Shown piece by piece: positions 35,029 through 39,053 of a stretch of 51,976 bases of DNA. The DNA comes from Myxococcaceae bacterium. GTDB taxonomy: Bacteria; Myxococcota; Myxococcia; Myxococcales; Myxococcaceae. The stretch's first letter is position 1. The number at the start of each line of letters is the position of its first letter. The stretch lies in contig JAIBBR010000018.1 in assembly GCA_019694575.1 (NCBI GenBank), forward strand, positions 1 to 51,976. The letters are read 5' to 3'. Under the pieces are notes generated by a model. It searched no databases, was not told where the DNA came from, and was given only the letters and a program-made list of their open reading frames with translations. The translations under genes were made by a program, and so were the position numbers.

Positions 35029-36144
35029 ATGGCGCGGGTCGCTGCAACCAATGTCGTTCAGGTGGCCTGCCTCTTCGTCGCGGTGAGCGGTGCTTGGGCC
35101 AATGACAACGTGATCTTGAGCGGCTCGGCGAACCTCGACTATCGGTATGTGTCGGGCAGCAACCCACCCGGTAACCCGTCGGCGTTGGGCTTGACGGGTT
35201 TGGGTTTAGAAGTCGCGATGAAGGGCGTCATCGACTTCGGGCACGGCTTATCGTTCACGGCCAAAGTGTGTGGTGGGTGCCATGGCGTCGAGATTGATCA
35301 GGGCTACGGCGAGCTCATGCTGCGCGACGCCCTCAATGTTCGCCTGGGCCGGTTGAACGTGCCTTTCGGTGAGTTCAATTTGCGCCATGATCCGGTCAAC
35401 TTCACGCTGCCGAGCAAGCCGCTGCCTTACGCGATGGGTGATTTGCTCTATTACGGCCCCCAAGACTTCAACCTGGGCATCGTGCCTGCGCCGTACGTCG
35501 ACAACGGCGCCGAGCTTTACGGCACGGTGGCGCTCAGCTCGCCGGTACAGCTCGACTATTCCGTCTATGTGGTGAAAGGCCTGGCGGGGAGCAACGATCT
35601 CGACTTTGCGGCATCGCGCCGTTACCTCGACAACAATCGAATTCCTGCGGTGGGTACGAGGTGGGTGCTTGCCAGCGGCGACTGGGCACTCGGCGCATCT
35701 CTCTCGGGGGGAACTTACGATGACGCCGACACGCTGACTTACGTGATGGGTGGCGCCGATTTTTATTTGCGTTTGGGCAAGGTGACGCTGCGCGCCGAAG
35801 GGTTGTTTCGCAGAACGCAGCTCGACGCCACCGCCCCGGGTTACCGCTACCAGCTCATCGATTCGTTTTTTCTCAAAGCGGGGTACTACGCCCAGCTCGA
35901 TTGTGACCTCACCCAGGCGCTCACGCTGTCGGTGCGCGCCGACGGCCTGTTTCGCTGGGGAGCGCCCTTGCCCGCAAGTCACCTCGAGGGTCCCTTCGCC
36001 AGCATCACACGCTATGGCGGCGGGCTTTTGTACCGGCTGTCGCCGAGCTTGGCGGTGAAAGCAGGGTACGAGTGGTGGAATTTCGTGGCCATCGCGTCTT
36101 TGCCACGGCACGTCGCCCGCGCGGCGCTGGTGTTTGGGTATTGA
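35029..36144 (+). CDS. Outer-membrane porin-like barrel with a CxxCH haem motif
   Basis: 371 aa. A signal peptide ends near AWA-ND (about residue 25). The rest alternates in amphipathic beta strands (VILSGSANLDYRY, LNVRLGRLNVPFGEFNLRHDP, ALGASLSGGTY, FFLKAGYYAQLDCDL) and ends AALVFGY with a terminal aromatic, as in OprO/P-like porins. Unusually, CGGCH at 81-85 matches the c-type haem attachment motif within a loop just before a strand. The diheme cytochrome gene starts 2 bp after the stop. Together they look like a small porin-cytochrome conduit through the outer membrane. Whether haem is really attached cannot be seen. Confidence 0.72.
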   Translation: MARVAATNVVQVACLFVAVSGAWANDNVILSGSANLDYRYVSGSNPPGNPSALGLTGLGLEVAMKGVIDFGHGLSFTAKVCGGCHGVEIDQGYGELMLRDALNVRLGRLNVPFGEFNLRHDPVNFTLPSKPLPYAMGDLLYYGPQDFNLGIVPAPYVDNGAELYGTVALSSPVQLDYSVYVVKGLAGSNDLDFAASRRYLDNNRIPAVGTRWVLASGDWALGASLSGGTYDDADTLTYVMGGADFYLRLGKVTLRAEGLFRRTQLDATAPGYRYQLIDSFFLKAGYYAQLDCDLTQALTLSVRADGLFRWGAPLPASHLEGPFASITRYGGGLLYRLSPSLAVKAGYEWWNFVAIASLPRHVARAALVFGY

Positions 36145-36146
36145 CA

Positions 36147-36740
36147 ATGCTCGCGCCTCTTCTGCTCATGGTGTCGATGTCGGCCGCGCCTTCAGCCCGG
36201 GTGCTCTATGAAACGAAATGTCTTTATTGCCATTCGGCGGTGGTGACCGAAGCGGCCGTACGCACCCCTGCCCAGTGGAAAAAGGTGGTCGCCAGCATGC
36301 GCCGAAAAGCGCCGCTGCTGATCGCGCGAGGAGAAGCGCGTCAGCTGGTGAGCTACTTGGTGACGACCTTGAAGCTCGTGCCGCCGCCCTCAAGTAAGCC
36401 CCGCGCCGCCACGGTGGTTTTGAATTCACCCGCGGTGCGTGAAACAGCGCCGCCTGTTGAGCCCCCCGCCGACAGCGAAGGTTTACCGGGAGCCGCCGAC
36501 GACGCGACGAGCACCGAGCCATCAGACGAGAACGATCGTTTCGAAGGGCATGCCACCGAGCTCATTGAACGGCGCTGCTCGAAGTGCCACACGCTCTCGC
36601 GCGTCTACACCAAGCTCGACACGCTCGATCGCTCGCTGGTGACGTTGCGCCGCATGCGGTTGAAGCCCGGCTCGGGTATCAGCGCCACTGACGCCGCGAC
36701 GATTGAACGGTTTTTGCGAACGCAGTTCGACACGCGCTGA
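36147..36740 (+). CDS. Periplasmic diheme c-type cytochrome
   Basis: 197 aa. A short signal peptide (cut near AAPSA) precedes two haem c motifs, CLYCH at 25-29 and CSKCH at 144-148. Each is followed about 20 residues later by a Met in a helix (VVASMRRKAP, LVTLRRMRLKPG) that may be the sixth ligand, so the protein looks like an internal duplication joined by a Pro/Glu/Asp-rich linker (about 78-130). ATG 36147 lies 2 bp after the porin stop, so the pair is co-translated. Partner of the porin is inferred. The gene converges on the kinase-FGE gene with 10 bp between them. Confidence 0.8.
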   Translation: MLAPLLLMVSMSAAPSARVLYETKCLYCHSAVVTEAAVRTPAQWKKVVASMRRKAPLLIARGEARQLVSYLVTTLKLVPPPSSKPRAATVVLNSPAVRETAPPVEPPADSEGLPGAADDATSTEPSDENDRFEGHATELIERRCSKCHTLSRVYTKLDTLDRSLVTLRRMRLKPGSGISATDAATIERFLRTQFDTR

Positions 36741-36750
36741 CCGCGACATG

Positions 36751-38565
36751 TCACAGGCAGCAACGAAAGCCGATGTGAGCGGCGCCCCCGAGCCCAGGCA
36801 TGAAGTAGTCGCGCAGCGAGCAGGTGTTGGCTTGAGGGGGTTGCTTGAACGAGCCCCCGCGCAGCACCCGTTGGGGTTCTCCCGAACGAAAGGGGGTGGC
36901 GGTCCACTCCGCGACGTTGCCGCTCAAGTCGAACACCCCTTCGGGTGTACGACAGAGGGCAGCCGACCCGCTGGGCCGAACGCTGGCCACCGCGCGCTTC
37001 GAGCACCGGTGTGCTTCAAAAGTGTCACCGTAAGGAAAAGCAGCGCCCTTCGTGCCGGCGCATGCCCGTTGCCACTCGTCTTCGCTGCACAAGCGCTTAC
37101 GGGCGCGCTGGCACAAAGTCTGTGCCTCGGCCCAATCGACGGCGGTGGCGGGCAGTGCTTGGGCGCGGTTGGGGTACTCGTAGCGATCGATGGCAAAACT
37201 GCCAAGCCAAGCCATGCCGTTGCGCTGTGCGAACTGGGCGCGCTCCAAAGTGGCCAGCGGTTCGTCTGTGCCGCCATCGCTCAAGGCATGGCCGAGCGCG
37301 CGGTAGGCCACTGCCACGCGCTCTGCTTCGTCGAGGTGGTTCTCGGCCAACGCTTGGCGCAGCTGGGCTGAGAGCAGGGTGCTCAGCCGGCTTTGCAATG
37401 CCGACCATTCGGGCCTCGAGGGAAAAGCCGCTTCGGCAGAACGCAGGTAATCAATTGCACTGTTGGGCGGGTCGCCAAACAGCTGGCCTTTGTCAATGCG
37501 CGCGGCAATGGTTGACGTCATGTTCGCCACTTGTCGCTCGAGCGCGTCAATGCCGGTTGGCTTCACCGGGGGCGATGTGCGTGGCCCGAAGGCGATGACC
37601 ACGGCCAAAGCGGTGAGCGCCGCCGCTGCTGCGAGCAACCACCATCGCCTGGAACTGCGAGAAACAGGCAGCGCCGCCGCCAACGCGGTGCGCGCAAGGG
37701 CACTTGAAGCGGGTCGCCCCGCGGGGTCGATGCTCAAGAGCGAGGTGATCAGCGCCTCGAAGGCGAGTGGTGCGTCTGCGCGCAACGCACGTACCTTGGG
37801 GCGGGGAGCGTTGGCATGCAGCGCCAGCACCGAAGGCACGTTGGGCGCGTCAAAAGGCACTTGCCCGGTGGCCATTTCGTAAAGCACGCAACCGACCGCG
37901 TAGAGATCGCCCGCGAACGTCGCCGGCTCACCGGTGACCAATTCGGGGGGCGCATAGTGCGGCGTGCCCATGGCCAGCGTGGCTTCTGACGCCGAACGTT
38001 CGGCCAGCCCGAAATCGAGCAGCTTCGCCACGTGCGGCTCTGCCGGCGCGCCATTGACGAAAATGTTGCCAGGCTTGATGTCGCGGTGAATGAAACCCGC
38101 TTGATGCGCCGCCGTGAGTGAAGTGAGTACCGACTCACCCACCGACCGAATCAAGCTCCACGGCAAGGGCTGGTGATAGGCGAGCAGTGTTTCGAGGCTT
38201 TGTCCCTCGAGCAGTTCCATCACCAAGTAAGGTTGACCGTTCGGCAGCTTGCCCCAGCCGTGAATGTCGACGATGCCTTTGTCGCCGATGGCGTTGACGG
38301 CCCGTGCTTCGGCCAGCAGCGAAGGCAATTCGGGGTTCTCGGTCAAATGGGGGTGAACGACCTTGATGGCCACCTTCTTGCCAATGGTGGTCTCGACGGC
38401 CGCATACACCGCGCCCATGCCGCCCAGACCTAAGCGCCGCTCGACGCGGTAGCCGCCGATTGTCGACCCCAGCAGTGGGTCATTTTCGCCAGAGCCTCCG
38501 GCGCCACTTCGGTACTGACAATGGGGTGCGTGCTGCGCGGGAGCTTCGCCGCACACCGGGCACAA
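36751..38565 (-). CDS. Ser/Thr protein kinase fused to an FGE-sulfatase (SUMF1-like) domain
   Basis: 604 aa from TTG 38565. It opens with a CxxC (MCPVCGEA) and a further Cys16, perhaps a small zinc site. The kinase follows: G-loop GLGGMGAV at 46-53, K68, HRD at 160-162 (FIHRDIKPGN), DFG at 184-186 and a PPE version of APE (YAPPEL). A membrane segment spans about 308-327. The periplasmic part has a helical region, then an FGE/SUMF1 domain (452-604) with LCSEDEWQRACAG, FDLSGNVAEWT, RVLRGGSF and a final GFRCCL. The start is uncertain: no ATG lies between the cupredoxin stop and the CxxC. The cupredoxin gene ends 20 bp upstream and is probably co-transcribed. Confidence 0.87.
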   Translation of the reverse strand: MCPVCGEAPAQHAPHCQYRSGAGGSGENDPLLGSTIGGYRVERRLGLGGMGAVYAAVETTIGKKVAIKVVHPHLTENPELPSLLAEARAVNAIGDKGIVDIHGWGKLPNGQPYLVMELLEGQSLETLLAYHQPLPWSLIRSVGESVLTSLTAAHQAGFIHRDIKPGNIFVNGAPAEPHVAKLLDFGLAERSASEATLAMGTPHYAPPELVTGEPATFAGDLYAVGCVLYEMATGQVPFDAPNVPSVLALHANAPRPKVRALRADAPLAFEALITSLLSIDPAGRPASSALARTALAAALPVSRSSRRWWLLAAAAALTALAVVIAFGPRTSPPVKPTGIDALERQVANMTSTIAARIDKGQLFGDPPNSAIDYLRSAEAAFPSRPEWSALQSRLSTLLSAQLRQALAENHLDEAERVAVAYRALGHALSDGGTDEPLATLERAQFAQRNGMAWLGSFAIDRYEYPNRAQALPATAVDWAEAQTLCQRARKRLCSEDEWQRACAGTKGAAFPYGDTFEAHRCSKRAVASVRPSGSAALCRTPEGVFDLSGNVAEWTATPFRSGEPQRVLRGGSFKQPPQANTCSLRDYFMPGLGGAAHIGFRCCL

Positions 38566-38585
38566 GCTGATGAAAATCGTTCCGC

Positions 38586-39053
38586 TCAGCGAACCACCTC
38601 GATCGCCCCGGCCATACCACTGCCCGCCGCCGAACCGTGCGCTGAACAGTAGTAGCCGTAGGTGCCCAACGCCTGGGCAAAGGTGAAGGTGCGCGCGTTG
38701 CCCTCGCGAATCGAAGTGATGGCCGGCGCCGGGCCACACCCCTGCTGAATCGGGTGTGAGTCGAAACGCCCGCCTGAAAAAGTCACCGTTTGGCCAAGGC
38801 GAATGCGTAGACACGGCGGAGTGTATTGGTTGCCGTTTTGCCCGAAGTTCACTTCGCGCAACGACGGGTTGGCAGTGGCGTCAATGAAGGTGACGCACCC
38901 GGCGTACCCCGTGCAAGGGTCAACGCAGGCGCCGCCATCGCAAGGTGGTGAAAGTCCCGCGTCGGTTGACGCGTCGGCCAACAGCGGCCCCACTTCAGGC
39001 AAACAACTGCTCCACAGTGTGATCAACGAGAGCCTCAAAATCACCGATGGCAT
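38586..39053 (-). CDS. Cupredoxin (plastocyanin-like) lipoprotein
   Basis: 155 aa. A signal with weak lipobox LWSSC (Cys17) is followed by a Cys-rich linker (30-55, DAG and CDGGACVDPC). The C-terminal 100 residues form a cupredoxin: GQTVTFSGGRFDSHPI with H100, then the C-terminal copper loop YYCSAHGSAAGSGM with C136, H139 and M147, a complete type 1 copper site. It should carry electrons or copper in the periplasm. It precedes the kinase-FGE gene (20 bp) and is divergent from the acyl-CoA dehydrogenase. Confidence 0.85.
   Translation of the reverse strand: MPSVILRLSLITLWSSCLPEVGPLLADASTDAGLSPPCDGGACVDPCTGYAGCVTFIDATANPSLREVNFGQNGNQYTPPCLRIRLGQTVTFSGGRFDSHPIQQGCGPAPAITSIREGNARTFTFAQALGTYGYYCSAHGSAAGSGMAGAIEVVR

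Follow-up and report, generated by a model that had tools for sequence, protein, structure and literature searches.

A myxobacterial porin with a conserved, predicted haem site in its barrel and a constant small cytochrome c partner

A small porin encoded in a Myxococcaceae genome very probably carries a c-type haem of its own, to judge by its sequence, and together with the cytochrome c gene that follows it probably constitutes a minimal module for electron transfer across the outer membrane. The porin family is real and conserved, and it has apparently not been described before. A conserved haem site in the porin and a constant gene for a small haem protein beside it point to a previously undescribed electron route over the outer membrane. 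The stretch of DNA analysed here, referred to below as the window (51,976 nucleotides), corresponds to one entire contig of a draft genome (5.28 Mb, 98.9% complete). Its relevant features are the following:

35029–36144, + strand: porin open reading frame (haem-porin), ATG start, 371 aa, with a signal peptide and a predicted 16-stranded OprP/OprO-like β-barrel
35269–35283, + strand: CGGCH, the predicted c-type haem attachment motif of the porin, residues 81–85, at the tip of the β3–β4 hairpin (L2)
35434–35436, + strand: codon of Met136, candidate sixth (axial) haem ligand, in the constriction loop L3 (residues 111–156)
36147–36740, + strand: dihaem cytochrome c partner, ATG to stop, 197 aa, with a signal peptide
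36219–36233, + strand: CLYCH, first haem motif of the partner, cytochrome residues 25–29
36576–36590, + strand: CSKCH, second haem motif of the partner, cytochrome residues 144–148
36751–38814, – strand: Ser/Thr protein kinase with a C-terminal FGE/sulfatase-modifying domain, convergent to the porin pair
38586–39053, – strand: predicted cupredoxin of the plastocyanin/azurin type, with an H..CSAH..M ligand pattern

As the original prediction had it, CGGCH occupies residues 81–85 of a predicted outer-membrane barrel, likewise predicted by structural models of two different family members, and a cytochrome with two CxxCH motifs begins after a gap of only 2 bp (36145–36146) between the porin stop and its own ATG. 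The haem-porin is a single-copy gene in this genome, which also encodes cytochrome c assembly proteins. Once overlapping reading frames had been filtered by codon-position GC, the porin and its partner were the only window reading frames of at least 100 aa with a CxxCH motif. The porin scores 26.5 bits against Pfam Porin_4, slightly below the cut-off of 27 bits. Rfam and tRNA scans of the window gave no matches, and no match was found in PHROGs. The reading frame of the neighbouring kinase is over-extended at its start, the true start probably lying near 38480.

Homologues of the porin were searched for among relatives and in samples of the order, class, and phylum; the order and class samples comprise nearly the same genomes, and the kinship of the searched genomes is known only as a rank. 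The porin was found in 28 genomes from three myxobacterial families, one of which lies outside the class sample of the window. A single-sequence scan of genome contigs with exact patterns retrieved one close relative only, and no plasmid-borne relatives of the porin were found. The family is separated from other porins by a wide gap in score, its members having E < 1e-55 and the next porins about 1e-21 or weaker; the nearest of these do not align at the site and have no CxxCH motif, which other porins of the same genomes lack as well.

The conservation of the two cysteines and the histidine, which had been proposed as a check, proved to be complete: C81, C84, H85, and G86 are invariant in all 30 distinct homologues that cover the site, at a sequence difference of up to about 65% (identity down to about 33–40%). 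Met136–Gly137 is likewise invariant (30/30), and Met136, the candidate axial ligand, is the sole invariant Met or His besides H85. Met139 is kept in 27 of the 30 sequences, and many Arg and Lys residues are conserved across the family. Among 14 homologues whose cysteines were counted, most have none in the mature protein besides the motif pair; the window porin has two more, at residue 292 and within its signal peptide. Random shuffling of the porin residues yields CxxCH in 0.065% of 20,000 trials, and the 30/30 invariance rules out a chance origin of the motif. Two Cys, one His, and a distant Met conserved together form the pattern of a c-type haem with His/Met ligation, which is the natural reading. 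A sequence search of the PDB with the family profile returned nothing but chance hits and short stretches of cytochromes matching around CxxCH.

The predicted position of the haem site was derived from two AlphaFold2 models, one of the window porin (14 sequences, pLDDT 77.7, 16 strands) and one of a homologue with 37% identity (30 sequences, pLDDT 83.4), which has the same topology. In both models, the end of strand 3 and the start of strand 4 fall within CxxCHG, which places the motif at the apex of the second hairpin loop (L2). Met136 falls in the long loop that joins strands 5 and 6 and corresponds to the constriction loop L3 of general porins. With this loop and 16 strands, the predicted models have the hallmarks of the general-porin (OmpF/OprP) fold. 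The best structural matches are the phosphate-selective porins OprP and OprO, with Z 26.9 (294 residues, rmsd 2.9) for one model and Z 27.5 (300–304 residues, rmsd 2.8–3.0) for the other and with 15–18% identity in the structural alignment; no solved OprP or OprO structure is known to contain haem.

In the established topology of porins, a C-terminal aromatic residue and an even number of strands imply periplasmic termini, and both are found here, so L2 comes to lie on the extracellular side. The mean hydrophobicity of strand 3 alternates, with L74, F76, A78, and position 80 pointing outward and S75, T77, K79, and C81 pointing inward; since C81 faces inward by this alternation, the haem would lie in the lumen. 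According to the models, it would be held in the outer half of the pore, away from the periplasmic face, a position that would suit exchange with a surface cytochrome. The original prediction had tied a conduit to a motif on the periplasmic face. The two models do not support such a location: CxxCH is predicted to lie in the L2 hairpin on the extracellular side and to face the lumen. By that criterion the idea would fall, yet a haem in the outer half of the pore would still be compatible with a conduit.

The small cytochrome is a fixed partner of the porin. At all 29 porin loci that no contig end truncates, spread over 28 genomes, the same strand carries a gene from a single family of small cytochromes c. 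The cytochrome gene mostly overlaps the porin stop codon or begins a few bases away from it. A kinase gene stands between the two in two genomes (G035 and G005), one of the two porin copies in G073 has its cytochrome 7.5 kb away, and in the third family the order is reversed, with the cytochrome preceding the porin. In most relatives the partner is monohaem; a second, N-terminal haem domain is found in the partner of the window and of six near relatives, and the CSKCH-bearing C-terminal domain of the window partner is what it has in common with the monohaem partner of distant homologues. Against family models, the partner resembles SorB-like proteins and the haem domains of quinohaemoprotein amine dehydrogenases only loosely, with scores far below the equivalog cut-offs.

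The kinase-FGE and cupredoxin genes lie convergently downstream of the porin pair in five loci (the window, G013, G016, G019, and G025). The cupredoxin scores 20.5 bits against Pfam Copper-bind, slightly below the cut-off of 21.2. Rusticyanin serves as an electron carrier for Cyc2 in Acidithiobacillus, and by analogy the cupredoxin is a possible further electron-transfer partner of the pair. In Anaeromyxobacter-like relatives, a gene for a ten-haem protein flanks the porin at eight of the ten loci inspected, and all five such genes scanned pass the OmcA/MtrC cut-off (TIGR03507). Proteins of the OmcA/MtrC family act at the cell surface in metal reducers, and these neighbours lend support to a role of the porin in extracellular electron transfer. 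No protein encoded in the window's own genome reaches the OmcA/MtrC cut-off; the one candidate, a 26-bit fragment containing stops, falls below it.

Known systems resemble the pair in part. The remark in the original prediction that haem resides on separate multihaem proteins in such systems is right for the Mtr and Pcc complexes but overlooks Cyc2 and Cyc572, the fused single-haem cytochrome-porins of iron oxidisers (PMC8406198, PMC10654088). Like the window porin, these combine a single CxxCH and a 16-stranded OprO/OprP-like barrel in one chain and have a small c-type cytochrome gene nearby. However, CxxCH of Cyc2 comes straight after the signal peptide, in an N-terminal domain that precedes strand 1, whereas in the window family it lies between strands 3 and 4. 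Moreover, aligned Cyc2 sequences largely conserve two motifs around CxxCH, AxPxFAR[QK][TY] on its upstream side and PxL on its downstream side. These are found in 0 of 30 homologues of the window porin, and the conserved Met in L3 distinguishes the window family from Cyc2. Comparison of the two families with hhalign gave a probability of 5.9%, over 20 columns around CxxCH only. Membership in the Cyc2 family was therefore rejected on the position of CxxCH, the signature motif, and the profile. The Cyc2 haem has been proposed to lie on the periplasmic side (PMC8406198), unlike the outer-side position predicted for the window family. Cyc2 is the closest functional analogue of the window porin, in a different family and probably of independent origin. 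Among Cyc2 homologues retrieved from plasmids with a short query around the published motif, four of five copies have a c-type cytochrome gene directly downstream; the motifs accompanying CxxCH in these homologues read AxPxFARQTG and PxL. The four (L097, L098, L099, and L101) come from Caballeronia, Methylocystis, Ideonella, and Polymorphobacter.

MtrCAB, MtoAB, PioAB, and the Geobacter Pcc complexes share with the window pair an outer-membrane barrel associated with c-type cytochromes, and the OmcA/MtrC-family decahaem proteins adjoining the porin locus in Anaeromyxobacter-like relatives add to the likeness. Barrels of this type have 18–28 strands and enclose a periplasmic cytochrome with 5–14 haems (PMC4245776, PMC5877670). 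Their haems are on the cytochromes, whereas the window porin has 16 strands and a haem motif of its own, and its partner has one or two haems. Membership in the Mtr/Pcc group was rejected on the number of strands (16) and of partner haems (two here, one in distant homologues). The pcc cluster of Anaeromyxobacter, which consists of a porin and a 12- or 14-haem cytochrome (PMC4245776), differs from the window pair in composition and in type of locus. ExtI of Geobacter sulfurreducens is stated to be without a haem-binding motif, unlike the window porin. Searches of the open-access full-text literature brought up no account of internal CxxCH motifs in porins other than Cyc2 and Cyc572; absence there is weak evidence.

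A minimal conduit might work as follows. The porin would be exported unfolded, and the cytochrome c maturation system would attach one c-type haem to C81 and C84, after which the barrel would be inserted into the outer membrane. In the models, the haem would then occupy the outer half of the lumen, with H85 and probably Met136 of L3 as its ligands. The co-translated small cytochrome would dock at the periplasmic mouth and exchange electrons with the barrel haem. In this way, the periplasmic redox pool could be linked to an extracellular donor or acceptor, with flow possible in either direction. In Anaeromyxobacter-like relatives, the extracellular partner would probably be the neighbouring OmcA/MtrC-family decahaem cytochrome.

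A minimal conduit of a haem in the barrel and a small partner was already part of the original prediction; the motif in the barrel protein and the fixed cytochrome stand, and electron conduction is an inference from them. The conduit is preferred because CxxCHG and Met136 are invariant in a family that has few other Cys and is separated from porins without the motif, and because the same-strand cytochrome is constant, often with overlapping or nearly overlapping genes, even where the order is reversed. It is further favoured by the agreement of the two models, the lumen-facing C81, the flanking OmcA/MtrC genes, and the presence of cytochrome c assembly proteins, as well as by Cyc2, which has the same ingredients and is also mostly followed by a c-type cytochrome gene in its plasmid copies. 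On the other side, one haem in the barrel and two in the partner may leave a gap of more than about 14 Å across the membrane, the OmcA/MtrC cut-off is not reached by any protein of the window's genome, and the neighbouring kinases and partner-switch regulators would also fit a sensing role. A more far-reaching proposal, for which the case is close to balanced but falls a little short, is that these porins are a separate class of outer-membrane haemoproteins that arose from an OprP-like porin independently of Cyc2. They would hold a His/Met c-type haem in L2/L3 on the outer side of the pore, and the electron path that they form together with a partner of one or two haems would be the shortest known through an outer membrane; in Anaeromyxobacter-like relatives they would dock surface OmcA/MtrC decahaem cytochromes without an adjoining Mtr-type barrel.

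The likelihoods given to the conduit and to its alternatives overlap and do not sum to one, since an oxidase like Cyc2 is one form of conduit. In that special case, iron or another soluble reductant would enter the pore and be oxidised at the barrel haem, from which electrons would flow inward to the dihaem cytochrome and possibly the cupredoxin. The ingredients are the same as those of Cyc2, namely, a single-haem 16-strand OprP-like porin, a small c-type cytochrome, and a nearby cupredoxin (PMC8406198), but homology to Cyc2 is confined to CxxCH, and where relatives have OmcA/MtrC, oxidation is no more likely than reduction. The lineages concerned are, moreover, generally thought to be heterotrophic, and an oxidase of this kind is rather unlikely.

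It is also unlikely, and somewhat more so, that the porin is a redox sensor or redox-gated channel whose L2/L3 haem responds to redox conditions outside the cell or to binding of O2, NO, or a similar ligand. Its output would be control of pore opening, or a signal passed via the small cytochrome to the kinase or partner-switch regulators, with no respiratory current. The predicted haem position in the porin eyelet would suit such a function, as would the Ser/Thr kinases adjoining the porin in the window and in the G035, G005, G161, and G164 loci and the SpoIIE/HATPase/STAS trio after the porin in Anaeromyxobacter-like loci. However, such regulators are abundant in myxobacteria, so their adjacency may be partly due to chance, and their type varies between groups, whereas the cytochrome is constant. 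The flanking OmcA/MtrC cytochromes suggest electron transport, and the invariant Met suggests a six-coordinate electron-transfer haem over a ligand-binding one. Finally, CxxC of some outer-membrane proteins has been proposed to be a structural disulfide or a metal site, but that the porin motif is one of these is highly improbable: hairpin disulfides do exist in outer-membrane proteins and the porin haem is deduced from sequence, yet the cysteines are no more invariant than His85, Gly86, and Met136, a disulfide needs no His and no Met, and the partner is always a cytochrome.

A porin of this kind bears on the question of how electrons cross the outer membrane in myxobacteria with surface decahaem cytochromes. 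If the conduit reading is true, a haem in the constriction of an ordinary small porin is a second, independent solution beside Cyc2, and trans-envelope wiring can do without a large barrel and without a multihaem wire. The 30-sequence family offers invariant residues for mutation, including in genomes that apparently belong to cultured Anaeromyxobacter strains, their identity being inferred.

Several further observations concern the neighbourhood of the porin in relatives. Ser/Thr kinase genes adjoin the haem-porin in L045, L048, L087, and L088 (G035, G005, G164, and G161, respectively). At L092:11153-13956 (+ strand), the porin–cytochrome pair is followed by a SpoIIE phosphatase with HAMP and dCache domains, then by an ATPase and a STAS protein; this trio, in Anaeromyxobacter-like loci, is a partner-switching signalling unit. 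L085 (G073:C117) bears two haem-porin copies and two decahaem genes within 20 kb, and the one decahaem gene scanned passes the OmcA/MtrC cut-off. In several Anaeromyxobacter-like loci, the porin is preceded by a small protein that resembles a lipoprotein, contains a Cx4CH motif, and has no Pfam or NCBIfam match; this protein is encoded directly upstream of the haem-porin at L085:7227-7670 (– strand), with equivalents in L092 and L093, and is possibly an atypical haem protein.
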